From Cloeon dipterum (taxonomy: Eukaryota > Arthropoda > Insecta > Ephemeroptera > Baetidae), in NCBI RefSeq assembly GCF_949628265.1, contig NC_088789.1, positions 33,535,883 through 33,599,882 on the forward strand: a stretch of 64,000 nt of DNA, given 5' to 3'. Positions 23,238 to 59,300 of the stretch are shown piece by piece. Position numbers and translations under genes: made by a program. Under the pieces are notes generated by a model that saw only the letters and a list, made by a program, of their open reading frames with translations, was not told the DNA's origin and made no database searches. Every line of letters starts with the position of its first letter. The first letter of the stretch is position 1.

Positions 23238-23835
23238 ATGAAGGAGGGGCGACTCGTTTCTTCTGTGCAATTATTTTGTTCTTTTTTTCGCTGGGCACCT
23301 TCACAATACCGTCTGCAGTTGAAGAATTTCTCACTCAATTTTGTCCAATCGAACAATTTAATACATTTTTTTATTCGACGGTTTTTTTTTCTGAGCCTCC
23401 AAATCTTTGCCGGACCTTCGAAAGGAGCACGAAAATCTGCAGATGAAGTGCATCATTTGGCTTCGCTAGTACAAGTTATCGCAACAGTTTTAATTTTTCA
23501 TGCAGAGAGAATAAAAACGATGCTATTTTTCGTCACAAGCATGCCCGTTTATTTATTATTATTTCTTAATTTTTGTAAGATATTATTTTATAAAAAACGT
23601 GGTATATTCCTCCGAAAACTCACGCCTGCAGGAACTGCAGGAAGTGGAAGTAGGCAACCGGCGCAGATTTGTAGCTTTGCGAGTTGCAAACTGCTCGCCG
23701 CGGCGCGCACCGAAATTTATTCTCTGCAGGAAGCCAGCAAAAAGCGAGTTTTTTATTTTGTCAAGGCGTGTGTGTCGCTGTGAAACTGAAACACTCACTC
23801 GCGGCGGCAGCAAAAATAGCGCAAAAATGGTCTGA
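23238..23835. repeat. Dispersed repeat, paired with 39841-40420
   Basis: From about 23440 the sequence matches 40070-40420 closely, sharing catcatttggcttcgctagt, cacaagcatgcccgtttatt and ttctctgcaggaagcc. The matching plus-strand ORFs (181 and 186 codons) share a hydrophobic stretch, but frames differ before it and neither has a domain, so I treat the likeness as DNA repeat homology. A third fragment lies near 24690-24760. Confidence 0.7.
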
Positions 23836-27871: not shown

Positions 27872-28081
27872 CCCAGGTAGCACACAAAGTCACTCAGACA
27901 TCACTATGATGTCATAATTTGACTTTCGTGATATCAGAAAATGATATTTGCAATAAAATCCAAATTAAAAGTGAGAAATAATATCCAAGCAGGTTTTGGG
28001 ACTCTATTATGCTCTAAAAAGAACACCCAGTCAGAATTTTTCTAAAAATTAATAATTTATAAAAATCAATTTCTGACATCT

Positions 28082-28558
28082 GACTGACATCACTGTGATG
28101 TTTGTTTGACATCACTATGATGTCAGTCACTTGGAAAATAAAAATGGCCTTAAAAGTTCAGAAAATGTTTAATTCGCGCACATCCGAGACCAATTTTTCA
28201 AAATTTTAATTTTTTTGGCCCATCTCATTTTCTGACTTCTGACTGACATCACTGTGATGTTTGTTTGACATCACTGTGATGTCAGACACTCCAAAAATAA
28301 AAATGGCCTTAAAAGTTCAGAAAATGTTTATTTCGCGCACATCCGAGACAAATTTTTCGAAATTTTAATTTTTTTGGCCCATCTCATTTTCTGACTTCTG
28401 ACTGACATCACTGTGATGTTTGTTTGACATCACTATGATGTCAGACACTCCAAAATGAAAACTGGCCTCAAAAGCTCTAAAAATGTATAATTCGCGCTCA
28501 TTCAGAACAATTTTTCGAAAATTTTAATTTTCTGGCCCACTTGCAGGCCAAGATCTGT
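28082..28558. repeat. Three tandem 159-bp units with imperfect palindromes
   Basis: Units start at 28082, 28241 and 28400, exactly 159 bases apart, each beginning gactgacatcactgtgatg. Each unit contains two near-palindromes of the form gacatcactRtgatgtc separated by a short spacer. The same palindrome appears at the left end (27897) and in inverted context near the right end (30600-30765) of the enclosing element, so it is a characteristic subterminal repeat. Confidence 0.8.
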
Positions 28559-28559
28559 G

Positions 28560-29700
28560 CGATGGGGACTTTTAGAAAAATTTGACGCGCGCGGTTTCTC
28601 ACATTCAAGCGCTCGGTCACCAGGCGGCAGCACCGGCATCACTGATCATGCAGCGAGCTGAGCGAGCGAGCCTGACTGAAGTTGCGCGGCCATGTTTTTT
28701 GTGTGAAAGTGTTGTTTTCAACGGATAGAAGAATTTTTGCGGTTTAAAAAGTGACGGTTAAGACGCTTGGAGACCTTGGAGTTCTGAAATCGCAGCAACT
28801 ACAGACTGCAGGGTGTCAATTCTGGCCGTAAACATCTGGATTTTGTCCCAAGCAGTCACAAAAGGTGAGTTATGTAAGCGGCTCTAGCGATTATGTTTTG
28901 CAAAGTTGAACACCCGTTTTGGTGTCTAACTTTAAGATTTGATCGGGATTTTTTAGAATATCGTCACGTTGAGGCGTTTCTCTAGTGCGTGTGCATTTTG
29001 TTTTAGGCTGATTGTGAGACTGAGTGGCCCGAGATCAATATGTACTGGCGCTCGTCATGTCCACTTCTCATTTGGACAGCATCGAGCACACTACCCAGAT
29101 CCATTTCAACCTTTCAGAGGGATGCCACATGTGGACCAGGGAGCCAGTTTCCTATATCTCAGCGTAGACACCTCTGGAAATGTGATCGCACACAGCCGTC
29201 GTCATTTTCAACGCAGCTGTGAGTCAAATTTTTCGCATTTTTGACTGTAAATTAAGAATTTTAATGCAGAAAAAATGTTTATTTACATATTTCAGTGTTC
29301 AAAGAACTGAATTTAATTGTGTTTTTTTATTATTTTAAGGCTAAGACTGGCAACGTGACGAGCTACCAGTCATCAATGTCATCAACATTGACGCTGTCTA
29401 CCTCGTAAACCAATCGTGACTCGAGGAGCTCAAATATCCGGGTTTTTGAGTTTGATTTCTTACTTTTGGGTAGGGTAACCAAGATGTTTAAATCTGCAAG
29501 CACACTCACATGTTTTTTAATAATAAATATAAATATTATATTCAGAAAAAATTTACCTTCCATAGTTCGAAGAGCAATTTTAATAATTTCAACCTTTATT
29601 ATTATGTGGGGAAGCATAAAGGGAATTTCCTTAATCTAAAAAAGTTGTATAGAATGAAATTCCTGAAATTTGAAAATTGAACCAACTATAAAATTGAAAA
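28560..29700 (+). other. Unique interior of the element, possibly captured host sequence
   Basis: This interior segment lacks the palindromic repeats and contains two exon-like ends: cacaaaaggtgagtt at about 28864 and cgcagctgtgagtc at about 29221. The open 91-codon frame at 28969-29244 has no known domain, and alternative frames are equally open for part of it. The structure (promoter-like CpG sequence, donor, exon-like piece) would fit a captured 5' gene fragment, but I cannot name a source. Confidence 0.3.
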
Positions 29701-29803
29701 AAAATGCTGCATTTTATTCCGTCCCAAATTGTCACGCGTCACTTACGGAAGCATCGTTCGAGCTGCAATCGCAGGCTGCCATGGGCAAGAAGGCAATTTC
29801 TGG

Positions 29804-30560
29804 CAGCCGCCGCAAGTAAGGCGGTCACTACCAGCGGCCGCGGCAAGGCGGCCACCACTGGCCACCACGGGTGTGGCGGCCACGACCGGCGGCCACGGGA
29901 AAGGCGCTTCAGCTGCATATAGGGCGGCCATGGCGGAGGCGGCCACCACCCTTGGCCACGGGCAATGCGGCCACTACCGGTGGTTGCAGACAAGGCGGCC
30001 ACGGGTAGGGCGACCACCACCGGTAATTGCAGGCAAGGCGGCCACCACCAGCGGCCACGGGCAATGCGGCCACTACCGGTGGTTGCAGACAAGGCGGCCA
30101 CGGGTAGGGCGACCACCACCGGTAATTGCAGGCAAGGCGGCCACCACCAGCGGCCACGGGCAATGCGGCCACTACCGGTGGTTGCAGACAAGGCGGCCAC
30201 GGGTAGGGCGACCACCACCGGTAATTGCAGGCAAGGCGGCCACCACCAGCGGCCACGGTCAGGGTGGCCACCACCGGCGGCCACGGGCAAGGCGGCCACA
30301 ACCGGTGGTTGCAGGCAGGGCGGCCACGGGCAAGGCGGCCACCACCGGCGGCCACGGGCAAGGCGGCCACCACCGGCGGCCATGGGCAGGGCAGCCACCA
30401 CCAGCGGCCACGGGCGAGGCGGCCACCACCAGCGGCCATGGGTGGGGCGGCCACGGGTTGGGCGGCCACCACCGGCGGCCACGGGCGGGGCGGCCACCAC
30501 CGGCGGCCACGGGTGGGGCGGCCACCACCGGCGGCCACGGGCGCGGCCACCAACGGTGGC
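29804..30560. repeat. GC-rich minisatellite
   Basis: Degenerate repeats of about 27-30 bases built on ggcggccaccaccggcgg and ccacgggca occupy 750 bases. Three higher-order units of exactly 99 bases start at 29960, 30059 and 30158. Long ORFs on both strands (up to 285 codons) arise because the repeat lacks stop codons; their protein composition (Arg/Gly/His/Ala/Pro or Trp/Pro/Val/Ala) simply mirrors the repeat, so none is called as a gene. Confidence 0.85.
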
Positions 30561-30783
30561 CATTTGTCTATATGATATCTGGGTGATTTAAGGGAGGCAT
30601 CACCCTGACATCAGGGTGATGTCAAATAGATGTTAGAAAATGATATCAGAGTGACATGAGAAAAGTGGACATTTGTACCTAAAAATGATATCACTGTGAC
30701 ATATTCTGATGTCATACAGACATCATAGTGATGTTCGGTATGACATCACAGTGATGTCTGGGTGACATTTGGTGCTACCTGGG

Positions 30784-34680: not shown

Positions 34681-36580
34681 TTATACAGTACCCATCGACA
34701 GGGGTGGGGGCGCAGTTAAGGGGTGCCGAGAGGGGCCCAAGAGGGTGCCATAGGGGCCCGGTGAGCCCCCTCTTTGCAAGCGGCATTCCTATGCTCCTGT
34801 GTAAAAAAATCGCCAAAACGGGGCGGATCGGGCCGAAACCCGGGTGGTCGACCGAGGGTCGCCCACGAACGCGTTTAGCGAAGAGGAACCCGCGATTCCT
34901 CCCATAGGCGATTTAAAAAAAATAAAACCAAAAGAGGCCTTTTGGAGGGTCTCTCCGGGGCAGCGGGGGGTGCGAGGGGGATGGGGGGTTGAAACCGGTG
35001 CCGTCGCCCGCAGAATTTAACGGCGAGTTCAGCTAACACCGGTTTTAGCCCGCAGGTTCCATAGCGGCCGAGATATAAAATTCGGAATGCCGAAAAACGT
35101 GGTTTGGACAATAATTATTTTTTTTGAGGAGCCCCTGCGAAGGCCCACGAGGCCCGACGGCCCGCCGCGACCACTCATTCGAAAGAGGCAGCAATTAGCT
35201 TCATTTTGACGGGTAGTACCGCCATCCTGCTCGAACGGCGCCGGAGCTGGAAGGGCCGAAAGGGTTAAAAACAGGCAAAAGTCGAAATCCCCATAAGATT
35301 AACACGGGAGCCCACTTTGTTTAGGATCAAAATTCCAAGATAGCCAATCTTTAAGTTTGCCCAAAAAACTAAGGCCCTGCGAGTATGAAATCCGGGTGAC
35401 CTCCTCAGGGTCAGCGGTGACCCTTCAAAGTTCGAAAACGCGATTTTTCGGTACTCCCCGCGCCCCCCCTGCGGGGTCCCTATGGGCCCCAGCGTCCCCA
35501 AACTCGAGATTCGTGCAGGCGACGAGTGGGCAAAGCCAACGGTGTGCGGAAAAGATTTTTCCGCCCCATACCGAAAAAGTTATTAAACGGGCAAATTTTG
35601 CCCATTTTCCACTTTGTACCTTTCGGCAGGTATATCTCCGGACATGGGCAAAAAATGAAAAAATGGCTCTAGAATCGATGCGCAATTTATCTGCGAACAT
35701 TTTAAGACCAAATTCGACCTGATCGGACCAAGATCCCCGGAGGAGTAGTCTTTGGCGCGCGGCGCGGAAAGGTTTTTCGCCTCCCATAAGCTTAACGTGG
35801 GAATTTCGAATTCGGATTTCGGGCAGAAAAAAATTCTTTTGGGCCGCGACTGCTGTATTATACTCTTCCACTCGGCGAACAGTCCCTGCAAACCGATTTT
35901 GGCGGAAATCCGGGCCATAGGCGAATTACGGCGGAGCATTGAAAATCCCGCATTTTGCCATCAACGCAAATGGCCAGGCTGAAAATACGCGCGGCGCCGC
36001 CGCGGAGCCGCCGGGCATTTAATCTCGAATTTGACCATCGGACACACACGACTGAGTTCGTGGGTGTCTGAAACCGAATTTTGAGTGGTCTAGCTCTGCC
36101 CAAATTCATTTTATAGGCGATTTTCGGTTTTGGTGTGCAAAACGCGTGCGGAGCGGCACCGAGCGAAATAGTTTTATTTTTGCCAAAATTCGTGTATTCG
36201 CCGCAGTGACGACCGCGACCCCTCATTCGAAAACGCCCGCCGAGCGCTTTAACCCGCCGTGACCGGCCGACCTTTCTCAGGGTCCCCTGACCTGAAATTC
36301 TCGGACGGCGCGCCACGGTCTTCGCTGCCCGATAACCGGACCGGCGGAGCGATTTTCACGCGCGACCCCTCCCCGGAGGCGTCTCGCCGGCGCGCGCACC
36401 CCCCAACCACCCCCGCGACCTTTCTCAGGGTGGCCGCCCCGAAATCTCTCAGCGAGCCGGCCTTCTCGGCGTTTCCGGCGCGCCTGCGCCCGCGACCGGG
36501 TTTGGGGGCGAATCAGAGTTGGCCCCCGCCCCCGAGGTATTTTTTTCAACCCGGGGAGGTAGGAAAGCGGTGAGATCGCA
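34681..36580. repeat. Least-decayed copy of the GC-rich dispersed repeat family
   Basis: A block with GC content well above the window average. It shares, in order, phrases with 25690-27200 (cccaaactcgagattcg, tatgggccc, tttaagaccaaa, ggcgaattacgg, ttttatttttgccaaaattc, cctttctcaggg) and with 40500-40980. Overlapping ORFs up to 152 codons on both strands have low-complexity Arg/Pro/Gly composition and no domain. Possibly a large non-coding element that accumulates GC or has been methylation-protected. Confidence 0.6.
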
Positions 36581-38579: not shown

Positions 38580-39840
38580 GCGATGCTGCTATAAAACCCT
38601 GGCGGAGGTCTGCTGCTCGCCGTTGATAAAAAAACACTGCAGTGAGTGTCGGTGAGGTCGGTCGATTTCCTCTTCTGGTCATTTGCATGGCATTAAAAAA
38701 ATTAAATTCCCTCTTCTGCTATCCCAATAATTATCATGACGGCACAGCGTTAGTTTAACGAAAGAATGTAACAAAAGAAGTTCAGATCGTGAGGATGTTT
38801 TAAACACGCTAAAATATGGAAATTAACTCTGCAGAGGATTGAAAATTAATTGCGGACGGTTTGCTTTTGCTCTACATTTTTCAATGCCACCGCGCAGCGA
38901 CCGCGCGAGCTGTTTGCTGCGATAAGGCGTCGCTTTTTGTGCTTTGCACTTGACCTTGTGACACAATTTTACGCTTTATATAAACGAATCGGTACATTTA
39001 ATGGCACGAATTGATTTTTCCGCTGATTTCGGAGCTAATCCAACGTGAGCGTGCAATTCAGGAGCAAAGAATTTCAATACATGCCCGATTTTTATTCGCA
39101 AAAATTGAACAAAAATGTACCAAATGACCGCTCATGCTGAATAAAAGCTCCAATGAAACCGCTAAAGGCAGGAAACTGTTTAACAAAATCGTTTTGGTCA
39201 ACAGCCAGCCAGGAATCAGTCACGCGGCGAGGTTAGAAAAATCGCAGAAGGAATCGGCGTGCACATGGGAGCGCGCGCGACCTTCGCTTGCGTGTGCACA
39301 TACAGAAATCGAGCGAGCGAGAGTGTGGCGGCGCCTACCTGTACCTGACCAGGGTAAAGCCAGGTTTAGCAGTGTGCAAAACAAAAAGAGAGAGCCCTGG
39401 AAAATTGTGCAAAATGATTCGACACACCCGGACAACTCGCGTCTTTTTCCGAAGCGGACACACAGATTAATTTCAACGTGAGAGAGCGAGAATTATCGAG
39501 GGGCGTTCCCTGCGACGGACGATATTTTCTCGCTTTCTACCGAAGCGCCTTTTCATTCATGGTCTGCCTGGAACGACCTATGCCGATGCGTCGAACTTTC
39601 CCTCCGCGTGCGAGTAATTTTTATGGATTTATTTTTGACTGCGTACGTGTTTAATAAGTTAATCGGAGTTATGTCAAATGCGAGAATAACACGCTGCAGA
39701 CCATTTTGAATTAATCGAAAGCTCGCTATCGACACGACCAATAGAAAAACATAATTCCCACAAATTCATCTTTTATTCTGCGTGACAAAGTAGACGGAAT
39801 GTTGTTTGAAATGCTTCCGGCCCAGAGGCGAATTTAGACG
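38580..39840. repeat. Third copy of the 33400-34680 repeat
   Basis: Phrases such as gccgttgataaaaaaacactgc, gataaggcgtcgctttttgtgc and gatttcggagc match 33420-34070 in order, and 39715-39800 matches 31627-31690 more loosely. No coding sequence was supported here; ORFs at 39134-39481 lie in unique-looking sequence but have no domain. Confidence 0.6.
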
Positions 39841-40420
39841 ATGTTTTTTAAAAAAAAAAATACTTGCTTTTGCACTGTCTCGTCATACCAACGCACGAGA
39901 AGCGTAAATGGGCACGAAAAGGGCGTTGCCGACCTCCTTGCCAATTTTATCACACCGCGCAAGTTGAAAGAAATCAAATCTTTGCTAAAATTAATTTTCC
40001 GGCTGTGCACGAGCGTTGTCACGCGGCCGGCTCGCGCAAAAGTAAATTACTTTTGGTCCCTGCCTCGATTCATGCATCATTTGGCTTCGCTAGTACAAGT
40101 ATTTTCCACAGTTTTAATTTTTAATGCAGAGAGAACAAAAATGATGCTTTTTTTCGTCACAAGCATGCCCGTTTATTTATTATTATTTCTTAATTTTTTT
40201 AAGATATTATTATTTTATAAAAAATGTATAATATGCTTTCTAAAACACGCGCCTGCAGGAAGTGGAAGTTGGCAACCGGCGTTGATTTGTAGCTTTGCGA
40301 GTTGCAAACTGCTCGCCGCGGCGCGCACCGAAATTTATTCTCTGCAGGAAGCCGGCAAAAAGCGAGTTTTTTATTTTGATAAGGCGTGTGTGTCGCTGTG
40401 AAACTGAAACAACCAACGAC
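39841..40420. repeat. Dispersed repeat, paired with 23238-23835
   Basis: See the partner: the shared core runs from about 40070 to 40420. The 186-codon ORF over it lacks a domain and its first half has no counterpart in the partner. Confidence 0.65.
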
Positions 40421-40489: not shown

Positions 40490-41000
40490 AAAAAATCAAA
40501 TTGTGTAAAAAAAATCGCCAAAACTAGGCGGATCGGCCCGAAACCCAGGTGGTCGACGCAGGGTCGCCCACAAACGCGTTTCAGGTGTGCAAGCCCGGAT
40601 TCCTCCCATAGGCGAATTTAAAAAAAATAAAACCAAAAAGGGCCTTTTCGACGCTCTCACGGGGGCAGCGGGGGGTCCGGGGGAGCTGGGCGGTTGAAAA
40701 CTAGCCCACCACCCGCAGAATTTAACGGAAAGTTCAGAAAACACCGGTTTTAGCCCGCAAGTCCCATAGCGACTGAGATATAAAATTCGGAAGGTGCGAA
40801 AACGTGGTTTGGACAATAATTATTTTTTTTTGAGGAGCCCTCGCGAAGGCCCACGACGCCCGACGGCCCGCCGCGAACTCTCATTCGAAAGAGGACTCAA
40901 TTAGCTTCATTTTGACGGGTAGCACCGCCATCCTGCTCGAGCAGCGCGGAAGGTGGAAGGGCCGAAAGGCTTAAAAACAGGCAAAAGTCGAAGCGCTTGA
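40490..41000. repeat. Partial copy of the GC-rich repeat family
   Basis: Matches 34800-35290 closely, with shared strings ggtcgaccgagggtcgcccac-like, cagaatttaacgg, acaccggttttagcccgc, ggacaataattatttttt and gcaaaagtcgaa. Truncated at about 41000, where the flank of the lectin array begins. Confidence 0.75.
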
Positions 41001-41617: not shown

Positions 41618-42120
41618 AACTTAACCATGTTTTCTCAAAAAAGCCTTAGCACTGTCAAAATTTATGAAATCTAGACTAGGATATGAGCTTGCTGACACTG
41701 ACTTTTTTGTTGATGATCTTCTTAAGAAATTCTCTCTTTCAGAAACTGCTGCTTACAATAACTTTATTATTAATAGACTTTTCAAGCTCTCCCAGATCGA
41801 TGGGGATTTCTATGGCACCCCTGCAATGGGCGATCCGGGCTGGAAAAAGGCCTCTTTTCTAAATAGACATGTTTTCACCAGGCACGCCTGTCACGATTAT
41901 CATTGTGTTTACTGTACTAACAAGAAATATCATTGTAAGGCCGGTTTCGATTGCAAATGTGTATACTGTGATGAATATGTGAAGTTCTACCACTTTTTGG
42001 AATGCAAGAAGATCCCATTGACTCTCATGCGTGCTAGTGTACTGTAATATTTATGCATGTCTATGTCTGTTGTACACCATTGGTGTTTCTTTAAATAAAA
42101 TAAAAAACTTAACCATGTTT
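41618..42120 (+). mobile_element. Processed retrocopy bounded by a 15-bp target-site duplication
   Basis: The direct repeat AACTTAACCATGTTT occurs at 41618-41632 and again at 42106-42120. The body between (41633-42105) begins with a short 5' leader, contains one uninterrupted ORF and ends with an AATAAA signal (42094-42099) and an A-rich tail, right before the second direct repeat. Target duplication, A-rich tail and lack of introns are the marks of LINE-type reverse transcription of a cellular or element mRNA. The other lectin units lack this insert at the same place. Confidence 0.8.
41664..42047 (+). CDS. Cys/His-rich 127-residue ORF in the retrocopy
   Basis: ATG at 41664 follows a 31-base leader, and the frame is open to a TAA at 42045-42047. 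The N-terminal half is ordinary globular-looking sequence (SRLGYELADTDFFVDDLL); the C-terminal half has a dense set of potential metal ligands: RHACHDYHCVYC, then KYHCKAG, then DCKCVYCDEYVKFYHFLEC. The spacing suggests a zinc-binding module of two or three paired CxxC-type sites, but I do not recognise the family. Intact ORF inside a retrocopy means either a recent insertion or retained function. No introns; no obvious promoter of its own. Confidence 0.6.
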   Translation: MKSRLGYELADTDFFVDDLLKKFSLSETAAYNNFIINRLFKLSQIDGDFYGTPAMGDPGWKKASFLNRHVFTRHACHDYHCVYCTNKKYHCKAGFDCKCVYCDEYVKFYHFLECKKIPLTLMRASVL

Positions 42121-42469: not shown

Positions 42470-45400
42470 CTAAGGTTTCTCGCAGATAAACCGCTCTATT
42501 CTCGTAACAACCTCTGAAGCGGCAGGGTACACTTCTCCAGTGACCGCTATCTGAGAAGAGGTCTTGGGATCAGTTTTCTCCAGTCCTACGGCCTGAACAT
42601 AAAAATACTGCCCATTTGTATGCAATCTGAGGTATGACGGATTGCAGAGGTATCTTATATTGAAGAAGTTCGGGAAGAGGTTATCTGGCAACACGGTGCG
42701 GCTGCGACACCAAACCTCGTGCGTCTGGTTGATGAATTCGGAATCGCCCAACATCAGAAAATATTTGAAGCCTGCAAAAAATACAAGAAGATTATTTGTC
42801 AAATAATAAATGGTTATTTTTTAGTGTTTAGCATTATATAACGTGTTGATTAATTAATCGAAGTTGAAAAAGTTTAAATCAATTGCACGTACAAACGCCA
42901 ATATTTGCATTTTTATCTGATTTAAATAAAATTGAAAATCGCATACCAAAGACTGATGAAAATAATTCAATATCAGCAGCATTCTGAGGTTCTAAGAGAT
43001 GCATTCCACGTTCGCAGCAACGAGTGAAGGCAATGTACGGAGTCTAAAATTGATAGAGAGTGAATTCTATTTCGAAACAAGTCGGATATTTACATAATAG
43101 TAATATTCACTGGATACATAAAATGTCCGACTTCCATTTTTAATAATGTATCCGAAATCATCTGCGTATATGAGCTTTAAAATGAAAATTTCGATAACTT
43201 ATAAAAGGAATAAAATACCTTTCCCAGATTTATTCAATGCGTCAATCAAAGTTTGCTATAGAGAAAATCTTATTAATATTAATATATGTACATTCCTACA
43301 AACGACAAACTACACTTACGTTTTCCACGCAAGGAAGAGAGTTAAAAAGCCAACAAGATCGGCGAACCACAACGCAAGGAGTTGGTGGGTACAGCTTTCA
43401 GGAGACACAAAAATATAGATCTTTAATGAAGGATATGTAAATCAGACCATTGTGCCGTTATCGAAGTTGTTGGTGATGATTTTTGAGACCAAAGCAGGCG
43501 CTTTTTGCTGGCCGCACTTGTAAGTTTCGTGGGCAATCGCACACTCGTCGTCGGATTCTATTTTAAAAATGATTTTCTGACGAGTAATTAATAAAAACAC
43601 AGACTGATGCCGCTGCATTGATCGTAGGCCACAAATCCCGTCTCCATTTTCGCGGGTTCCTCCTGGGACACGAGTTCTATTTTTCGCAGAGTAGCTATCG
43701 CGTCCAATCCCCCAATGCCAAACTTCGGAATGATAGTTTAATTACTAAGCATATTTTTAATAAATAAAATTTATGATCAAATTTAAATAAATTCGATCCA
43801 ACTTTTAACTTTCTTTACAAACCATTCCAATTTCCACTCCGATGCATTTCAAAAAGCACTATGAACATTCAAAATTTCATTTATGAAATGGAAGAATTAT
43901 TAAGTCTCGACCGACCTTCAAGTTAAGCGAAATAGTTGCCGTGAGAAAAGCGCTCACGTTCATGAGAAGATCAATTTGTTCTGCGCAAAATTATCTTTGG
44001 ATTTGGTTATTCTCAATGATTTCCGAGCCTTACCAACGGTGATGTCCCATATTTCCGCACATTCGGTCTGCATTGCTCTTCCGAAGGTGCCCTTCTTTCT
44101 CACTTCGCAGAGAAAACTCTTGTTTTGGGCGCAGTCATCGGTGGCCAGCAACAAGGATTCATTCCTCACTTCGAGATAAACGCAGTCCAGACCGGGTTTA
44201 GGGTGTCCCTCCTTCCAAGTAAGCTCAGGGTGGACGAAGTCCCGGCTCAGGGTGCACCAGCGGAAGTTTGAATCACACCCTAGATCAGTGCCAGAGAGCC
44301 AGTAGTCTCCAAAGGTCGCCGGAGCGAATTCTTGAGGTGTTTGTACATATTAAGTCTTCATTCCATCGCTCTAAGATTATTTGCTTACTTGAGACTATTC
44401 TGGAAAAGCAACTCGACTTCCCCGCTGATTCCATGGAGGCCAAGGTCAAGCCAATATCACAGCAACGGTCACGGGCGGCTGCCCAGTCTGACTATTGATC
44501 AATTATAGGTTTCTCTGGAAAACTGAAAGAAAATTTGTTTGACGTCTCACCAATTTTGAGGTGTAAGTCAGAAAATTCCGACCACATCCATCATACCAGT
44601 TTCCGTAAAAGAAATAGTCTGGATGACAATACATAATCAGAGAAGATTTATTCTTTAACTATAGAAGCGAACAATACCACGTAAAAAGAACCGACTAATT
44701 GTAGAGTCATAGCCAAAGAAGGAAGTCTAGATTTTAAAAATTCCTCCATTACCGATTCATCTTTAGTAGATATAGGTCTTACATTTTTTTCGCAGCTTTT
44801 CATTGGGCAGAAAGCAACGCAAGGTTTTTGGGTGGTCTTCAATGCACTCTGAAAATTAAATTCATAGTCTTAGGGCCTATATAAATTTCAAGCAATACCT
44901 TGCACGCGAATATATATTTATTTGCGCAGTTGCGGTCCGTCATGATGGTTCCCGTGGAATTCAAAGTAAAGCGGAAATGCACGCAGCTCTCGTTGCCTCC
45001 AATATTGTCAGGCTGAGGGGATTCCCAAACTAGACCCTTTGCGAAAACAGTTGGTCCATTTGGCTCGCACCACGACCACTGCTTCTCAGGCGCACCCTTC
45101 CACGTGCCACTGGTCCAGTAATTGAAATTCGCAGTCCAGTTTGCTGAAATTTCAAAATGTCACTAAGTTTCCGTCATTCATAAGCAAATAACCTTTATTT
45201 GAACCGGCCAGGGCAGTAAGGCCCAATTGCTCAGCTACGTTGTCGATGTTGAGCGTCTCCATTCCCAAAGCGCAACATTGGTAGTAACTGTTTAACCACG
45301 TCATCTGTCAGACCAAAAAATCAGACATTGGAGCCATGCCTAGACTCGGATACAAACCGGCTTGTTGCCAAGGAGATAGGTAAAGGCACCGATGTCAAAC

Positions 45401-47372
45401 CAAATTCCGTAGGATTTTTTATCTTCACATATAATAAGATTAAACTTTTGATCATTCTTTAAACTGCCTATAAACCTTTCAAATTTCCTGATGAGTCAAA
45501 TAAGGAGTCCTGAAATGGGATTCATTTTAAAACTTTCTTTATAAACATGAATATTCGAACGTCTCGGATGCAGATCTTCGGGCAGTCGACGGAATACTGG
45601 CAGATGAAGGGCAGGGCGTCGTCGCACTTTCTGTGCACCAGACCCTGTTTCGTGGATACCGTGGATAGAGAAACGGCCAAACAACGGTCCGTGGCAGAAG
45701 GGCTGGTGTTGTTGGTTGGCAACCAGATTTTTTCCGATTCGATCAGTTTTTCCGAAATATTGAAGCCCGTCGAGCACCAAGCGTACTTATTTTCCAAATT
45801 GCAATTATCATCTTCGTTTGAGCCGCTCGTCCAGAAAGTTTTGGCTTAAATAAAAACATTTATATAAGATGACGTAAAACTTTAAAAGTTTAAACCTTCA
45901 AAATTGTTCATGCATTCCAATCCTTCGAGAGAGGTCACGGTCAAAAGGGTCATGTTTAGCGCCTTGCATCGAATTGCTGCTTCGTTTCTCGTTGCCTCAT
46001 GATTTAATGTTTTGATTTTGCTCGGAATTAGGGTTAATATAAACTTACATTAGAGCTGGAAACAAAATACTGCAATCCACAACTTGATATCTTCTTCTTG
46101 CCTATGGCTGAGATGAATTTTAAATAAAATTATGCTTAATTGTTTGTAAGTTCGTAAAAAACCTACAATCTTGGAATCCTGAGGCTTCATTCTTCTATAA
46201 ATAAAAATATATATCATGTAAGTTTTGATATTTGACTATGCATGGAGGTTCAAATTTGGGTAGGCAGCCGAATCGAACCGGTCGAAACTTTTTACGGTAT
46301 TTACATTTCCTACGATATCATAACATTCGATCGTGAGGAGTTGATAGATGGCACAAAACATGAATTAAATACATACCGCAAGAAAACTGTTGTACTCTGC
46401 ACAAGATAAACTGCACGGAATAGGCTGTGATTTTCTTCAAGTTAATTTTTACTTGGTTTAAAATAAAAATTCTTAAACGGACTGTGGTTGCTGTTGTTGT
46501 TGTAGACGTTGTGGTTGTCGTCCCTGTCGTAGTTGTTGTCGTTTTGGGCGTACTTGTTGTAGAAGTTGCTGATATTGAAGTAGTTACAACTTTTGACGAG
46601 ACCACGTCGATTGCGGTTGTCGTGTCTTGCACAACCTGAGTGGATGGAGTCAGCGATTCGGTGCCATCTTGCACCGTTCCGGTTTCTTTGGTTGTGACGT
46701 CAGTTTTGAGGTCAGTTGTGGCCTCATTTGGAACGCCAGTTGGAACTTCTGTCACGTCAAGGGGGCTAGGACTGGAATCGTGACCTGATTTTTCGTCCTC
46801 TGAGCATTAATTTATATTTGCAATGTTATTTATTTTACTCGGAATTGTGATGACATCCGTTGGTGCTGCTGACGATGACTCACCAGCAGAGCTTCCTGTC
46901 ATCATGGCTGCCGTCGTTGCCGTCGGCAACGTTGGCGTTGTTGTAAGAATGGTAGTGGTCTTTATTAAAACGCAATTAAATTATGATTCCAATGTCTTTC
47001 TTCAAAGCACATACCGTGCTCGTAGTTGTAGTCTTTTTTACAGTTACATTTGCGGGCGGCAGACATTTTTTAAAGCCGCAACACAGAATTATATGTTTTC
47101 TTCGCAAATTGTTTTGTACACGAATTTTGGGGATGTTCATCGGACCTGATTCAAATAAAAATTGCATTTTTTCTTTTTTTTAAACTTAATTTACCATAAT
47201 TCTGATTGTTGATTGTGATTTTGATGGATTTAATTTTGTTTCCCTATTAAAATTCATATTATTCAAAATATAATCCCATCAATCCATTAAAGAGACCACT
47301 TACTTGATTTTGTGCATGCCCAAGCGTCTGCAGAATAGCAATCAGAAGCAACGTCCAGAAACCGAAATTCAT
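42470..47372 (-). CDS. Copy 1: secreted mucin-like protein with four CTLDs and an internal OBP domain (27 exons)
   Basis: Exons in transcript order: 47304-47372, 47195-47243, 47015-47145, 46884-46959, 46483-46799, 46167-46194, 46049-46107, 45896-45995, 45561-45844, 45476-45509, 45358-45422, 45193-45304, 44899-45143, 44783-44848, 44678-44726, 44551-44618, 44389-44491, 44034-44330, 43916-43980, 43823-43858, 43605-43722, 43448-43557, 43320-43394, 43219-43255, 43094-43161, 42947-43043, 42470-42771. The total is 3060 bases, 1019 residues. Order: signal peptide (MNFGFWTLLLIAILQ), basic segment with KCC-type cysteines, Thr-rich stalk (to about 214), CTLD1 (about 223-371, ending CDDALPFICQ), CTLD2 (372-523, with PQPDN and NCANKYIFAC), CTLD3 (546-700, ending DDCAQNKSFLCE), OBP-like domain (Cys at about 709, 740, 744, 787, 796, 805), CTLD4 (828-1019, ending RFICEKP). 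No membrane segment after the signal peptide, so probably secreted. Splicing predicted by eye. Confidence 0.85.
43448..44060 (-). other. Copy 1 OBP-like domain (exons 18 end to 22)
   Basis: The domain runs from TECAEIWD (end of exon 18) through EQIDLLMNVSAFLTATIS, CFLKCIGVEIGM, FGIGGLDAIATL, AYDQCSGIKSDDECA and AIAHETYKC. Cysteine spacing is C-X30-C-X3-C-X42-C-X8-C-X8-C, within the classic insect OBP signature (PBP/GOBP family), including the diagnostic C-X3-C and final C-X8-C. Classic OBPs are small six-helix proteins that carry hydrophobic odorants or pheromones. Here the fold has no signal peptide of its own and sits between lectin domains. The length from first to last Cys, 97 residues, fits a whole domain. 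Confidence 0.75.
46377..46434 (-). other. Conserved intronic block, possible cassette exon (copy 1)
   Basis: Inside intron 5, this block is as well conserved among the three genes as true exons are, and it is flanked by an AG and by a consensus-like gtatg. In phase 0 it reads KITAYSV, then QFILCRVQQFSC. It ends in phase 1 whereas exon 6 starts in phase 0, so inclusion would shift the frame and in this copy hit a stop at once. It may be an alternative exon giving a short mucin-like product, or a splicing-control element. Confidence 0.4.
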
Positions 47373-49009: not shown

Positions 49010-52000
49010 CTAAGGTTTCTCGCAAACATAATTGCCTAAAGACGAAACCACTTTGGAAGGGTCAGGGTACACTCCTCCATTGATTAACACCGGAGTATCG
49101 GTCTTGGGATCCGTTATTTGCAGTTCTGTGGCATACAATGATTTTTCAACATAATTCATTCTCAGGTTCGACGGACTGCAGTGGTATCTTGAAATTGAGT
49201 CTGGATAGTAGATGTCGTCTTTCAAAAGGGTGCGGCTGCGACACCAAACCTCGTGCGTCTGGTTGATGAATTCTGTATCGCCCACCATCCAATCATAGTT
49301 GACATCTGCAATTTACAAATGAATTTAAATTCCTTTTCTGCATCCATGTGTGTGTTTCTTTCTTTCTTTGTCAATAAAAACTGTTTGCTCGCATAAATTA
49401 TTTATAGATATGCCATCATTTTGTAAGAGTTTATTTTTTAAGGATAAAACATATAAAATCTCATACTATAGATTCCATAAATATGTTGAGCATCAGCAAG
49501 TGTCTGAGGTTCTGCGAGATACATTCCAATTTCGCAGCAATGAGTGTAGGCATCATAAGGAAGCTAAAATTGCAAGAGCTTATATATTTTCCATTTCTAA
49601 GTATGGTGACTGTATTTACTGGAAATGGGTCTAAATTGGAAAAATAAAACGTTCTGTTTTTGTCTAAAACGAGATTTCCATATGCATCTAAAATTTTGAA
49701 ATTTAAAACCTTTTTTTTCGTTAGCTAAAAGGGCAAAATACCTCTTCCATCTTTATTCAATGCGTCGATTAAAGTTTGCTATATATTTTAAAGAAAATCT
49801 TAATGTACCTTCTCACAAACAACAAACTAAATTTACGTTTTTTATGCAAGGAAGAGTGTTCGTAAGCCAGCAGGCTCTGCGCACAGGAACACAAGGAGTT
49901 GGAGGCATCAGCTTTCAGAAGAAAAAATAGAAGTCTTCAATATAAGATATTTAGATCAAACCATTGTATTATTATCGTAGTTCCTCGTGACGATTTTTGA
50001 GACCAAGTCCGGCGCTTTTTGCTGGCCGCACTTGTAGGTTTCGTAGGCAATCACACACTCGTTGTCTGAATCTGTTTCTAAAAATTAAATTTCTGCCAAG
50101 AATGTAATTATTAAAAATCAAACTAATGCCACTGCATTGATCATAAGCTACAAATCCCGTCTCCAATTTCACGGGATCGTCTTGGGACACGAGTTCTATC
50201 TGTCGCAGAGTTGCTAACGCGTCCAATCCCCCAATGCCAAACTTAAGAATATTATTTAAAATTAGGATTAAAATTTTTAAATGAATTAAAATAAGACAAA
50301 TTTGATCTAATTTTAATCTTTCTTTTCGTATACCATTCCAATTTCCACTCCGATGCATTTCAAAAAGCACTAAAAAGTGTTTATTTATTTTTGAAACATG
50401 CAGTATTAATGTATCTTCTCGACCAACCTTCAAATTTAGCGATATAGTTGCCGTGAGGAAAGCGCTCACGTTCAAAAGTAGATCGATTTGTTCTGCAAGA
50501 AAAATTAACTTATTTTTAGTCTTTCACAGCGGAATGATTTTTGCGGGCCTTACCAATTGTGATGTCCCAGGTTTCTGCACATTCGGTCTGCATGGCCCTT
50601 TGGAAAGTACCCTTCTTTCTCACTTCGCAGAGGAAACTCTTGTTTTGGGCGCAGTCATCAGTTGCCAGCAACACGGATCCATTCCTCACTTCGAGATAAA
50701 CGCAGTCCAGGTTGGGTTTAGGGTGTCCCTCCTTCCACTTGACCTCAGGGTTGACGAAGTCCCGGCTCAGGGTGCACCAGCGGAAGTTTGAATCGCACCC
50801 CAGGTCAGTGCCAGAGAGCCAGAAGTCACCATAGGTCGCCGGAGCAAATTCTATGTTTTTTTATATATTTATCTTTATTTCGTCGCTCTCTTAGATTTTG
50901 TTCGTACTTGAGACTATTCTGGAAAAGCAACTCGACTTTCCCGCAGATTCCATTGAGGCGAGAGTCAGGCCAATCTCACAGCAACGGTCACGGGCGGCTG
51001 TCCAGTCTGACTATTGGTCATTTTGTATATATGTTTCTTTTGTAATACTCGGAAGAACTGTTAAACGTCTCACCAATTTTGAGGTGCAAGTCAAAAAGTT
51101 CCGACCGCATCCATCGTACCAATTTCCATAAGAGAAATAGTCTGGATAAAAAGACAGAACTATACAAGATTAATCTAACAATAGAAGCGCATTTTATACC
51201 CAGTAAAACTTTCGTATTAGTGGAAGAATCAAAGTCAAAGAAGGAATCCTAGTTTTAAAATTAATGCCACATTTATCCTTTCATCTCTAATGGAAATGAT
51301 TTTATATAGATCTTACATTTTTTTCGCATGTCTTTACGGGGCAGGATGCAACACAAGGTTTTGGGGTGGTTATTATTGCGGTCTGAAAATTAAATTCATA
51401 GTTTTAGGGCCTATATAAATTTCAAGCAATACCTTGCACGCGAATATGTATTTATTAGCGCAGTTGCGGTCCGTCATGATGGTGCCCGTGGAATTCAAAG
51501 TAAAGCGGAAATGCACGCAGCTCTCGTTGCCTCCTTTGTTGTCGGGCTGCCGGTTTTCCCAAACAAGTCCTTTTGCGAACACTGTGGGTCCATTTAGCTC
51601 GCACCACGACCACAGCTTCTCAGGCGCCCCCTTCCACGTGCCACTCGTCCAGTAGTTGAAATTCGCAGTCCAGTTATCTGAAATCTCAAAATATTTCTAT
51701 GGACAGATTATTAAATTAAAAGTCTAACCTTTATTTGTGCTGGCCAGTGCAGTAAGGCCCAATTGCTCAGCTACGTTGTCGATATTCAGCGTCTCCATTC
51801 CCAAAGCGCAACACTGGCGGTAACTGTCCATCCACGTCATCTGTCAAGCCAAAAAATTAGACTTTGATATGTCATGCAAAACTCGGATACAAACTGGCTT
51901 GTTCCCCAAGAGATAGGTGTAGGTGCCGATGTCAAACCAAATTCCGAAGGACTTTTTATCTTTATTTTATGATTTTACTTTTTATCATTCTTTCAATGTC

Positions 52001-55000
52001 CTATATATATACCTTTCAATTTTCCTGAGGAGTCAAATAAAGATTCCTAAAATGTGTTCAACTTAGTTTAATGATATGATTATTCTGTAATTCGAACGTC
52101 TCGGATGCAGATCTTTGGGCAGTCGACGGAATACTGGCAGATGAACGGCAGGGCGTCGTCGCATTTTCTGTGCACCAGGCCCTGTTTCGAGGAATCTGTG
52201 GATAGAGAAACAGCCAAACATCGCTCCGTGGCAGAAGGGATCGTGTTTTTGGGCGGCAACCACATTTTTTCCGATTCGATCAGTTTTTCCGACATATTGA
52301 AGCCCGTCGAACACCAAGCGTACTTTTTTTCCACATTGCAGTTTTCATCTTCGTTTGAGCCGCTCGTCCAGTACGTTTTAGCTTGATTAAGAGTATTAAT
52401 ATTGTTTAAGTACAAGACAATAGTTTGAGTTAAAACCTTCAAAATTGTTCATGCACTCCATTCCCTCGAGAGAGGTCACGGTCAAAAGGGTCATGTTTAG
52501 TGCCTTGCATCGCAATGCTGCCTCGTTTCTCGTTGCCTAATTTGATATTTAAATGTTTACCAGAAATAAAATTGAAAAAATCTTACTGTAGAGCTAGAAA
52601 CAAAATACTCCATGCCACAATTTGATTTTTTCTTCATGCCTGCTTGGACTGAATAGAATATGTATCTTAATTAGATGTAATTCGTAAAAAAAACTCATAC
52701 TATCTTTTGATCCTGAGACTGGATTTTTCTATATTAAAAAAATTTAAATTATATGTTTGGAATTTGCTATGTTTGGAGGTGGAAATTTTATTTCGCAGCC
52801 CAATATCAAATATCAAGCAAACTTTGATTTAATTTAACGTGCTGAAAATACGCAGTGTTGTGCTCTGATTGGCTCTCAGAAATGACAGCGCCACAGCAAA
52901 TAGCTTTAATTATTGCTGTGTTGCTGTCATCTTGATTTGGCAATATTTTCTAAATACATGACATATACCAAAATTTAGTAAGTGGTAAAACGGTTTTTAT
53001 ATTTCGGCATGTCGAGTGCGAATCGTCCATCAAATCTAATTCCATCCTCAGGAGTTCATTGATGGAACAAAACATACCGCTAGAAAACTGTTGTACTCTC
53101 CACAAGATAAACTGCACGAAACTGGCTGTAATTTTCTTCTAGTTGCATTTCTAAGTTTTATTAATAGAAATATATAGAAACAGACTGTGGTTGTTGTCGT
53201 TGTGGTCGTAATTGTTGTTGATGAAAAGGTAGTAGTTACATCTTTTGAAGAAATCTTATCGATTGCAGTTGTTGAGTCTTGGACAGCTTGCATGCTGGGT
53301 GGAGAGGCCGCATCGGTCGAAGGAGATGGCGATTCGGTGCTATCTTGCACCGTTTCGGTTGCTTCGGTCGTGACGTCAGTTTTGAGGTCAGTTATGGCCT
53401 CACTCGGAACGTCAGTTGGAACAACTGTCACATCAACGGGGCTCGCAGTGGAATCGTGACCTGATTTTTCGTCCGCTGAGCATTGATTTTCATTTTCAAT
53501 ATTTTCATTTTACTCGGAATAGTGATTGCATCCGTTGGTGCTGCAGTTGATGATTCACCAGCAGAGCTTCCTGTCATCATGGCTGCCGTCGTTGCCGTTG
53601 GCAACATTGACGTTGACGTCAGAATGCCAGTGGGCTTTGATTAAAACGCAATTTTATTATGATTCGAACTTTCTAGTTCATTGAATAATACCGTGCTGGT
53701 GGCTGTGGTCTTTTTCACCGTCACATTTGCAGCTGGCAAACATTTTTTAAATCCGCAACACTTGATGATATGGTCCCTCCGAATTTTGTTCGGCAGACGA
53801 ATTTTTATAATTTTGATTGGACCTGAAATTAATTAATTTATGATCTATTAAACGCAATACTATACATGTTGTGAAATTTAGTTTTTCTTGAAAAACAACT
53901 CTCTCTCTCTCTCTCTCTGTTACTCATGCTTACAAATAATTATATTCGAAATCAATTATACTCTGACAAAGTTGAAGTTCAAGTAAATTTTTACAGGAAA
54001 AGAGAGAAAATAAATATAATATATAAATAAAAAAATAATATCTTCAGTTGAAAACCACTTTAATTTTCAGGTTAAAATTTCAATTTTGAGAATTTTTTCT
54101 CTTTTTATCGCTGTTCTCGGAGTGGGAAGGGCGCGCACTGCACTAGCACGAATGCTGAAACCCTGGTGCGAATAACACCGCGAACGGATATTATGGGCGC
54201 ACCAGGCAGCACAGGGACCCAGCCCACTCAAGGGCCACTTGCCTCCGCACCGAGGACTGCATTGAAACGCTGGACATTTGTCCCGTGAAGCCAAATCACG
54301 CATGCTGGAAAGGTGCAAACCAGCCCGTTGAGCAGTTTGAGCAATTCAAGTGACTAAACTGACCACTTTTTGCCATCTCTGACATTGGGTAGCCAGTATT
54401 AGATCTCCGAATTGCTCAAATACCTCCCATTGCCTTGACACTCCTGAGAGTGCCTTAACAATGCGAGCCAACGGGCTGTTACGCGTAGCGGGAACAATAT
54501 TTGGCTTTTCCCGCGCGAACATGAATCTCGATCTATTTTTAACTAGATGTTTCATACATTCCAGGATGTACGATGAAAATGTAGCTCCATAATTCGCCCT
54601 TCATACTGGATGGATCGCGAGCAAGCGAAATTTATTTGATAAAACAACAAAACATCAATGATATTATTTATTTAATTATTGTTCAAATCATCTGTTAAAT
54701 CCCCATTTTTTAAGAGAATCCCATTTAAAAAAATAAGAGCAAAAAGAACAGATTTTAATCCAGGAATGTGTTTATAAACTCCACTAACGGGATTGATTGA
54801 AATTAAAATTGCTATTTGATTTGCAAACTAAAACCTACCTGAATTCTGTTTGTTAACTGTGATTTTGATGGATTTCATTTTGTTTCCCTGTAAGGTATTT
54901 AAATCAAAACTTGATGCCGAAAATTAATTAAAGAACTTACTTGATTTTGTGCATGCCCAATTGTCTGGAGAATAGCTATCACGAGCAGCGTCCAGAATCT

Positions 55001-55009
55001 GAAATTCAT
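49010..55009 (-). CDS. Copy 2: CTLD/OBP fusion protein, intact (27 exons)
   Basis: Exons: 54941-55009, 54839-54887, 53692-53822, 53559-53634, 53186-53475, 52701-52728, 52587-52639, 52437-52536, 52098-52381, 52013-52046, 51895-51959, 51729-51840, 51433-51677, 51317-51382, 51200-51248, 51074-51141, 50908-51010, 50554-50850, 50428-50492, 50334-50369, 50124-50241, 49962-50077, 49837-49911, 49742-49778, 49620-49687, 49467-49563, 49010-49305. The total is 3027 bases, 1008 residues, with the same domain order and phases as copy 1. The stalk is the shortest of the three. CTLD2 keeps RQPDN and NESCV. The OBP-like domain reads CFLKCIGVEIGM, AYDQCSGIKTDSDNEC and VIAYETYKC, with two more residues between the fourth and fifth Cys than in copy 1. 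Intron 2 is expanded to about 1 kb by an insertion. About 7 kb separates equivalent points of copies 1 and 2. Confidence 0.85.
53079..53139 (-). other. Conserved intronic block, possible cassette exon (copy 2)
   Basis: Counterpart of 46377-46434. In phase 0 it reads KKITASFVQFILW then RVQQFSS, flanked by ctag and gtatg. Its 61 bases would shift the frame if spliced between exons 5 and 6. Confidence 0.4.
53850..54825. mobile_element. About 1-kb insertion in intron 2 of copy 2
   Basis: Intron 2 is 49-51 bases in copies 1 and 3 but 1016 bases here. The extra sequence begins after the exon-3 acceptor region and ends before the shared aaactaaaacctac. It contains a (CT) run at 53900-53918 and a GC-richer core (54100-54560) unlike the rest of the gene. 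I recognise no transposase, terminal repeats or target duplication, so the element type is open. The 83- and 69-codon minus ORFs in it are not supported. Confidence 0.6.
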
Positions 55010-56331: not shown

Positions 56332-59300
56332 TTAATAAATTTGCTCGCAGATATACCGCTGTACATCCGTAACCACTTTAGAAGGGTCAGGGTACACTCC
56401 TCCAGTCACTACTGTCTTTACAGAGCTCTGAGGATCTATTACTTCCAGTTCTTGGGCAAATATTCTTGGCTGAATTGGATTCATTTTGAGGTACGTCGGG
56501 TTGCAGCTGTATCTTGTGTTTCCCGCCCAGTACATGTTATCTGTCAAAACGGTGCGGCTGCGACACCAAACCTCGTGCGTCTGGTTGATGAACTCTGTCT
56601 CGCCCACCATCATGTTAGAATCATCGCCTACAAGAAAAGTCATGAAGTTTCTGAACACACGAATCGATTGTTGAGGGTCGAATTGTGGGTAAAGTGGATA
56701 TTTTTTCCAACCAAAAAACAGCGCGACGTGTGAGCATTTTTTGGCTGCACTTTTTGGTTGGAAAAATATCCATTTTATGTAGTTCGACCGTCAAAAATCG
56801 AATAGTCTGTTCATCTTTAATTAATCTGAAATTTGAATCAACTTTGTTCTTTACTAACGCAATGTTTCTTTAAGTTGCATGAATGCTTTCCGATCGAAAA
56901 AAATACAATTAAAATTACGTACCAGTGAATGATCCAATGAGATCAGCATCATCAAGAGTCTGTGGTTCTGCAAGATACATTCCAATTTCGCAGCAATGAG
57001 TGAAGGCATCATAAGGAGTCTAAAATTTCAAGAGCGTAAATAATTTCTCAATTGCAAAACATGGGTGACTATTTACTGCATCTGTCAATGTGTTGATGGT
57101 TTCATAAAATGTCCTGTTTCCAATTCTCTTAATATATCCAAATTGATCTATATTGATTAAAAGTAAAACAGCAATTTTCCTTAGCCTTAAAGTTATGTTA
57201 CCTTGTCCAGTACTAAAAAGTGAGTCGGTTAAAGCTTGCTATCAAAGAAAATTTTTAAATCAAATATGCCATGCTAAAACAACGAACTAAATTTACGTTT
57301 TTTACGCACGGAAGAGAGTTCGAAAGCCAACAAGTTCGGCGCACCGGAACACAAGGAGTTGGTGGTATCAGCTATTTAAAAGCAAAAATTAAAATTCTTC
57401 AATAAAATATTTTTAAATCAGACCATGGTCTGGTTATCGAAGTTGTTAGTGATGATTTGTGAGACCAAATTTGGCGCTTTTTCCTGGCCGCATTTATAAG
57501 TTTCATGGGCAATCACACATTCATCGTCAGAATCTTAATTCAAAATGAATTTAGGCCAACTATAATTAAAATTCATACTTATTCCGCTGCATTGATCGTA
57601 AGCCACAAATCCCGTTTCCAATTGCACGGGATCATCCTGGGACACGAGTTCTATTTGTCGCAGCGTTGCTATGGCGTCCAATCCTCCAATGCCAAACTAA
57701 AGAAAAATAATTGTGAAGATTATATCATATGAAGATGAATTTTGAAAATCTTTATATACCATTCCGATTTCCACTCCGACGCATTTCAAGAAGCACTAAA
57801 AATGTGTATTTTTGTTAATAAAATGTAGTGATTATAAATTCTCGGCCCCACCTTCAAATTTAACGAAATAGTTGCCGTGAGAAAAGCGCTGACGTTCAAT
57901 AGAAGATCGATTTGGTCTGCATAAAATGAAATTTCCGTTTATATAGCAACTATCATCAGAATGATTGGTGGGCGTTTACCAACGGTGATGTCCCAGGTTT
58001 CTGCACATTCTGTCTGCATGGCCCTTCCAAAGGTAGCCTTCTTCCTCACTTCGCAGAGAAAACTCTTGTTTTGGGCGCAGTTATCGGTGGCCAGCAACAC
58101 GGATCCATTCCTCACTTCGAGATAAACGCAGTCCAGACCGGGTTTAGGGTGTCCTTCCTTCCAAGTGAGCTCAGGGTGGACGAAGTCCCGGCTCAGGGTG
58201 CACCAGCGGAAGTTTGAATCGCACCCAAGATCAGTGCCGGAGAGCCAGAAGTCTCCAAAGGTCGCCGGAGCGAATTCTTGAGTTGTTCGTATATTTTAAG
58301 TCTTTATTTCGTCGGTATCAAATTTTATTCGTACTTGAGACTATTCTGGAAAAGCAACTCGACTTCCCTGCTGATTCCATTGAGGCCAGAGTCAGACCGA
58401 CCAATATCGCAGCAACGGTCACGGGCGACTGACCAAGTTGACTTTTGATCATTTTTATTTGTATCTTTAGGAAAACTCTAAGACAATTTGTCGATGTCTC
58501 ACAATATTTGTGGTGTAAGTTAGAAAATTGCGGCCACATCCATCGTACCAGTTCCCATACGAGAAAAAGTCTGGAAAAAGCAGAATCTCGAGATTTATTT
58601 TTAAACAATTTAATTGAACTATACCTCGTAAAACTTGCTCTCCAGAACCAATGATATCAAAGAAGGATTCCTGGATTTAAAATGGATGTCACATCATTTA
58701 TCGATTCATCTTTATTCTAGGTTTTACATTTTTAACGCAGCTCTCTATAGGACAGGACGCAACGCACGGTTTTGGGGTGGTTTTCAATGCACTCTAAAAT
58801 TTAATAATCATAGTTGGTTCTTAAAGAAATTAAAAGCTATACTTTGCACGCGAATATATATTTATTTGCGCAGTTGCGGTCCGTCATGATGGTGCCCGTG
58901 GAATTCAAAGTAAAGCGGAAATGAACGCAGCTCTCGTTCCCTCCCTTATTGTCCGGCTGGAGGTTTTCCCAAACAAGACCCTTTGCGAAAACTGTGGGTC
59001 CATTTGGCTCGCACCACGACCACTGGTTCTTAGGTGCCCCCTTCCACGTGCCACTGGTCCAGTAGTTGAAATTCGCAGTCCAGTTGTCTAAAAATCCATA
59101 TTGTTCCATAGTTCCTTATAAATTACCAATATAACCTTTATTTTTTGTTTCGGTCAGGGCAGTAAGGCCCGATTGCTCAGCTGCGTTGTCGATGTTAAGC
59201 GTCTCCATTCCCAAAGCGCAACACTGCCGGTAACTGTTTATCCACGTCATCTGTCAAGTTAAAAAACTAGACTTTGGAATCATGTGAGACTCGGATACAA

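Follow-up and report, generated by a model that had tools for sequence, protein, structure and literature searches.

Three tandem genes in the window

The window analyzed here comprises 64,000 nt of contig C4 (33,535,883-33,599,882) from the 190-Mb genome of the mayfly Cloeon dipterum (Baetidae). It harbors three tandem genes, which are located on the minus strand and lie 6.5-7.5 kb apart. Copy 1 (42470-47372) was modeled by hand from a three-way alignment of the window copies, with GT-AG introns. The model consists of 28 exons and encodes 1050 aa in a single open frame from the ATG to the end of the fourth C-type lectin domain (CTLD4). An initial annotation of this DNA had described one continuous frame of about 1010 codons; copy 1 is indeed open throughout, but its length is 1050 aa. 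The encoded protein starts with a signal-like sequence, followed by a CC motif, a Ser/Thr-rich stretch, CTLD1-3, an odorant-binding protein (OBP) domain, a linker, and CTLD4.

The individual parts, all on the minus strand, can be assigned to defined exons. By eye, exon 1 (47304-47372) encodes a signal-peptide-like start, MNFGFWTLLLIAILQTLGHA, and similar starts are found at 55009 in copy 2 and at 61642 in copy 3. Exons 3-5 (46483-47145) contain the CC motif (IILCCGFKKCL) and the mucin-like stretch, in which Ser and Thr account for 46% of the residues over 165 aa. CTLD1 is encoded by exons 8-10 (45561-46107) and CTLD2, which carries the motifs QPD and TDRNC, by exons 12-14 (44899-45422). Exon 19 (44034-44330) is an intronless open frame that holds the end of CTLD3 together with the first cysteine of the OBP domain, which begins in the last part of exon 19 and runs through exon 23 (43448-44100). 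This region had been placed precisely, at 43448-44330, by the initial annotation; the exons numbered 18-22 there are exons 19-23 in the new model of copy 1. A Cys linker (PPTPC...CWL...PC; exon 24, 43320-43394) precedes the fast-evolving CTLD4 (exons 25-28, 42470-43255). The CTLD modules have an exon pattern in common, namely a Cys linker exon, short exons, a CC exon, and a W exon, and the OBP domain is positioned between the W exon of CTLD3 and the linker of CTLD4.

In copy 2 (49010-55009, minus strand), exons 3-28 are open throughout, with the OBP domain at about 50620-49962; exons 1 and 2 were seen in the sequence, and the joined frame covers exons 3-28 only. Copy 3 (56333-61642, minus strand) has an open OBP domain (about 58046-57424) and open exons 19-28, but its CTLD3 is frame-broken in exon 18 (58441-58335), where 4 nt are inserted, so that the intact frame postulated for all three genes is retained in copies 1 and 2 (exons 3-28) and lost in copy 3 as modeled. 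The latter is either a pseudogene or spliced differently. A comparison of the window with 81 retrieved proteins revealed no stretch of more than 25 aa above 94% identity to the window genes. Therefore, these proteins do not include a public model of the window genes themselves.

Outside the three genes, the window contains several repeats. These include GC-rich tandem repeats with spacings of 99 and 28 nt, in which several frames on either strand remain open (29681-30583), a 159-nt unit in three tandem copies 82-94% alike to the reference (28066-28542), dispersed pieces of 94-148 nt present at three to four places between 24325 and 35744 (families D12 and D15), and a 215-nt direct repeat with 85% likeness (34911-35125 and 40616-40830). 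The open frames 23238-23780 and 39838-40398 have a long similar stretch in common (e.g., MLFFVTSMPVYLLLFLNF) and probably represent a repeated element. On the plus strand, a 140-aa open frame that is Cys-rich near its end (41625-42044) gave no Pfam match at E 0.01. No Rfam family matched at gathering scores anywhere in the window.

An odorant-binding domain between lectin domains

The six-cysteine spacing of OBPs, which had been reported for all three tandem genes, was measured as C-X30-C-X3-C-X42-C-X8-C-X8-C in each window copy; the X10 given earlier between the fourth and fifth cysteines of copy 2 is actually X8. The OBP pieces of copies 1, 2, and 3 matched the Pfam family PBP_GOBP (PF01395) at E 1.4e-9, 3e-9, and 1.8e-9, with bit scores of 38.5, 37.4, and 38.1 against a curated cut-off of 22. 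As the initial annotation had proposed, we also compared the whole spliced protein of copy 1 with Pfam, and it matched both PBP_GOBP (E 1.3e-7) and Lectin_C (E 1.8e-9). In the PDB, the copy 1 OBP domain matched OBP1d (E 6.7e-6). A profile built from ten OBP domains of the family retrieved 21 sequences from the PDB (E up to 0.01); 19 of them are named odorant- or pheromone-binding proteins, with OBP1d as the best match (8.2e-8) and LUSH at 1.5e-5. Within the family alignment A4, all 21 members matched PF01395 at E up to 0.01, and 19 of the 21 matched PF00059.

The latter profile, Lectin_C, scored 38.7 bits (cut-off 22.6) with copy 1 and covered three stretches. When the domains of copy 1 were inspected by eye for an EPN or QPD motif, QPD was seen in CTLD2, and neither motif in CTLD1, CTLD3, or CTLD4. 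The Q, P, and D of CTLD2 are invariant in 21 aligned family proteins, and this domain resembles the carbohydrate-recognition domains (CRDs) of langerin and Mincle (E 1.7e-4 and 6.2e-4). Based on the QPD motif, CTLD2 is the only one of the four domains for which sugar binding is plausible.

Since the last part of CTLD3 shares exon 19 with the first OBP cysteine, the CTLD3-OBP join does not depend on any assumption about splicing. Separate lectin and OBP genes are rejected on this ground.

At the other end of the OBP domain, the continuation into CTLD4 does depend on splicing. Directly after exon 23, the window copies read ATG GTC TGA or ATG GTT TGA. The exon 23 donor (GTYTGA) is weak and contains an in-frame TGA, which would act as a stop if the intron was not removed. 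We therefore considered that the protein might end with the OBP domain, the TGA being a true stop and the CTLD4 exons either restricted to an isoform or decaying. To survey the donor, we used 30 family loci including the three window copies, 29 of which were readable. The in-frame TGA directly follows the OBP domain at 19 of these 29 loci, the window copies among them, and the fast evolution of CTLD4 would also agree with such an end. But the GT was kept in 29/29 cases, while the other ten loci have codons different from TGA; some of them encounter a stop later in the intron, and four have none within 20 codons. Likewise, exon 24 could be located in 29 family loci, again counting the window copies, and in these it is preceded by the acceptor AG. 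The unusual donor is not peculiar to this position, since non-GTRA donors are frequent among the 77 donors of our hand-made models, and GTYT or GTTC occurs at other introns as well. In 60 public models, the OBP match extends to the end of the profile; 59 of these run on by 25 aa or more, and 50 by 90 aa or more. The sole exception, P0036 (LOC135943870), stops at this TGA and points to a possible isoform that lacks CTLD4. Moreover, when the CTLD4 segments of 22 copies were aligned, they proved free of stops and had kept their cysteines (a 23rd copy, L050, had no match to exon 28 and is not part of this alignment). A stop after the OBP domain is thus unlikely as a general rule, and we regard a protein that ends there as improbable. 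CTLD4 probably belongs to most transcripts.

The older C. dipterum annotation made use of RNA-seq splice-junction hints, according to the available text of the genome paper (PMC7250882), and the retrieved records named 'Hypothetical predicted protein' appear to derive from that annotation.

Family size and distribution

We searched the genome with the fused exon (exon 19). Among the best 150 of 355 candidates, at least 97 places matched strongly (E of 1.3e-26 or better, 59-100% identity) and at least 53 others less strongly. At 96 of the 97 strong places, the match extends past the OBP cysteine. A query with the OBP exon identified 100 places, and 96/97 fused-exon places are followed on the same strand by an OBP-exon match at a distance below 2 kb (median 508 bp), compared to about 0.05 expected.

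Matches were then pooled with those of queries derived from divergent loci. All rows were taken for the fused-exon query (150), the OBP-exon query (100), and one divergent-locus query (150 of 150 returned); for the other divergent-locus queries, only rows at new places were added (27/90, 26/150, and 29/150). Because only the best 150 of 355 (fused exon), 402, and 601 candidates (two divergent-locus queries) were scored, the locus counts are lower bounds; and since fused genes supplied the queries, distant free OBPs are under-counted. The pool yielded at least 176 OBP-exon loci from 277 rows. At least 158 of them are preceded on the same strand by a CTLD-exon match at a distance below 2.5 kb, whereas 200 shuffles, in which the sizes of C2 and C5 were taken from protein records, averaged 0.275 such pairs and never exceeded 2. 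The 18 OBP loci lacking an upstream CTLD match among the matches listed may be free OBPs or fusions with a missed CTLD. Conversely, an OBP exon lies downstream of 157 of 205 CTLD places; the 48 places without one among the matches listed may be plain lectins. The OBP domains of nine relatives are 44-68% identical to that of copy 1.

Four divergent loci, L052-L055, were fetched, and all four run from a CTLD through OBP pieces to a CTLD. This is a biased sample, since they were selected because earlier matches pointed to an OBP part there. Three of them (L052-L054) initially looked like plain lectins owing to weaker CTLD matches and proved to be fusions, while L055 was found by the OBP exon. In L052 (C3:1457900-1460400), L053, and L055, the end of CTLD3 and the start of the OBP domain seem to lie in different frames or pieces, as if split by an intron. 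The fused CTLD3-OBP exon may therefore not be universal. Related CTLD-exon clusters with no downstream OBP-exon match occur at C2:942259-987970, C2:8297596-8334485, C3:1398686-1420577, and C4:34598498-34613552; these four are possibly lectin-only relatives that might reflect the state before the fusion. When the Pfam OBP family was compared with the genome exon by exon, a single match was obtained (C3:3625495), and the compiled match lists contain no CTLD match near it.

A profile of 21 family proteins retrieved 76 public proteins from a collection that may lack other mayflies. They all belong to C. dipterum or Neocloeon triangulifer, both Baetidae. The OBP profile is present at least partly in 78 of the 81 proteins retrieved overall (in 14 of them over fewer than 60 profile positions), and the full six-cysteine pattern is present in 52 of the 78. 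A CTLD match ends at most 60 aa before the OBP domain in 75 of the 81, and a CCxxG CTLD-like part follows it in 45. Neocloeon contributes 13 of the 78 OBP-bearing proteins, and 12 of these 13 have the OBP end as well as a continuation. The six Neocloeon proteins that were scanned all exceeded the PBP_GOBP cut-off, and three of them also the Lectin_C cut-off. Judged by these gene models, the fusion architecture is common to C. dipterum and N. triangulifer. The domain order that was to be sought in other insects hence recurs in a second genus, but no member of the family was found outside Baetidae among the proteins searched.

A search with an OBP-only profile against proteins of about 72-228 aa gave five matches, all from C. 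dipterum. P0036 and P0038 begin in the CTLD3 exon, and P0037, P0039, and P0040 run into the linker. None of these five short matches thus resembles a classic free OBP, in a search that free OBPs too distant in sequence would escape.

Could the fusion be an error of gene models that merged neighboring lectin and OBP genes? Some public models are fragmentary or merged, such as P0004, which contains PF00884 (sulfatase). But a single exon holds both domains, nearly all strong matches of this exon pass the OBP cysteine, and two public model sets as well as a second genus agree. We therefore consider a merging error very improbable. Taken together, the sequence, the exon structure shared by the paralogues, and public gene models of two baetid species support a real CTLD-OBP-CTLD fusion, the architecture first read from the window. 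Its genes form, as far as can be judged from the genomic and protein sequences, a tandem-duplicating family that is found only in baetid mayflies among the material searched. In a literature search of open-licence papers, none of the titles and abstract openings listed described a CTLD-OBP fusion.

Selection among copies and a possible role

Nei-Gojobori mean dN/dS values were determined for 22-23 copies, namely the three window copies and 20 fetched ones, of which 18 belong to the C4 cluster and two lie on C1. We obtained values of 0.30 for CTLD1, 0.16 for CTLD2, 0.27 for CTLD3 (including the frame-broken exon of copy 3), 0.19 for exon 19, and 0.17 for the OBP exons 20-23, with dS ranging from 0.31 to 0.48. 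A decaying pseudogene cluster is rejected for the OBP domain and CTLD1-3, given their dN/dS of 0.16-0.30, even though copy 3 carries a frame break. The conservation of the OBP domain applies to mostly recent copies, largely of the C4 cluster; across the family, OBPs do vary. CTLD4 reached 0.86 (95% 0.67-1.03), with 0.55 for its first part and 1.13 (bootstrap 0.86-1.28) for its C-terminal half, which is not significantly above 1. Among 18 close pairs, the respective values were 0.48 and 1.29 (0.94-1.72). An alignment error could inflate the dN of CTLD4. When dN of sub-windows was divided by the dS of the domain, values between 0.07 and 2.3 resulted, and CTLD4 retains a near-unchanging core at GDSEFINQTHEVWCR (0.07) beside sub-windows of 1.5-2.3. 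The ligand loops of CTLDs lie in the second half of the domain. The pattern in this half would agree with diversifying selection, but, since dN/dS is not significantly above 1, a loss of constraint fits as well.

Indeed, the variation of CTLD4 could reflect nothing but relaxed constraint, the family then being a secreted coat or mucus protein of dosage type that has no recognition function. The CTLD4 value, which does not exceed 1, and the mucin-like N-terminal part speak for this explanation. It is weakened by the conserved CTLD4 core next to rapidly changing segments, which is unlike plain decay, and we rate it as rather unlikely.

On balance, we lean slightly toward a secreted, mucin-like multi-CTLD capture protein of baetids with an OBP domain between CTLD3 and CTLD4, to which most of the counted C. 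dipterum OBP genes would belong. Secretion is suggested by the signal-peptide-like N-terminus read by eye. The initial annotation had likewise envisaged a secreted protein that would combine sugar binding with the binding of small hydrophobic ligands, perhaps a chemosensory or immune capture molecule anchored to cuticle or mucus. In the present reading, the mucin stretch and CTLD2 would tether the protein to a glycan layer or to a target that bears glycans, the OBP pocket would carry a hydrophobic ligand differing little among recent copies, and CTLD4 would provide the changing recognition face. Such a capture protein might act at a surface or in the humoral compartment, and defence would be a likelier task than odour coding. 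The latter predicts that the OBP pockets are the most divergent parts, yet the OBP domain is among the most conserved ones, which favors capture or defence over chemosensation. A more far-reaching idea, which we put forward tentatively, is a variable lectin repertoire of 150 or more baetid genes, with a constant scaffold (mucin stalk, sugar-binding CTLD2, and lipid- or odorant-holding OBP) and a diversifying CTLD4. The 191 published 'OBPs' would then represent defence or self/non-self recognition miscounted as olfaction.

The published interpretation is different. The genome paper reported 191 OBP genes for C. dipterum, the largest insect set at that time (Almudi et al. 2020, PMC7250882), and proposed that the expansion serves sensing, with the gills read as chemosensory. 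Accordingly, the fusions could be carriers in the mucus of gills or antennae, and their expansion would widen the range of water-borne chemicals sensed. In the available text of that paper, OBP genes are expressed in gills and heads (82 of 167 OBP genes in gills), and three of them (OBP219, OBP199, and OBP260) in HRP-stained cell clusters of the gill (PMC7250882). The strong purifying selection on the OBP domain among recent copies indicates that the domain matters, which is also in line with a carrier function. Diversification for odour tuning predicts the opposite of the observed pattern, in which change is concentrated in CTLD4 and not in the OBP domain. Besides neurons, anti-HRP staining also labels certain glycans, which is relevant if the stained gill cells secrete glycoproteins. 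We consider the chemosensory explanation possible, though doubtful.

OBPs are usually read as free carriers, and OBP gene counts are used to infer smell. The available main text of the 2020 paper treats the C. dipterum genes as OBPs and does not contain the word 'lectin' (PMC7250882). The published set (191) and our paired loci (at least 158) come from the same species and are of the same order. These numbers make it likely that most of the published C. dipterum OBP genes are fusions, and probably not free odour carriers. Because OBP domains adjoin lectin domains at 158 or more loci, the proposed expansion of olfactory carriers in the gills (PMC7250882) needs to be rechecked gene by gene. Counts based on domain profiles alone can thus mislead. 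In other insects, four OBPs have been described in the damselfly Calopteryx (PMC5381652) and ten, of up to 252 aa, in the heptageniid mayfly Parafronurus youi (PMC13205551). Neither 'lectin' nor 'fusion' occurs in the available text on the latter (PMC13205551).

Compared to known systems, the family combines features of two protein classes. With multi-CTLD C-type lectins (PF00059) it has in common the three Lectin_C stretches of copy 1 and the langerin- and Mincle-like CTLD2 with its QPD motif, and it differs from them by the OBP domain and by a diverging fourth CTLD, in which no sugar motif was seen by eye. With the OBPs of the PBP/GOBP family (PF01395) it shares the six-cysteine spacing, a profile score above the cut-off, and the resemblance to OBP1d, LUSH, and others in the PDB. 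A classic OBP is a free carrier of about 120-170 aa, whereas the complete-looking public models of the OBP-lectin fusion comprise 567-1592 aa. Because it sits between CTLDs in a 1050-aa model, the domain of copy 1 is an internal OBP domain and not a classic OBP, and the family would provide a natural example of an OBP pocket at work within a large lectin-like protein.
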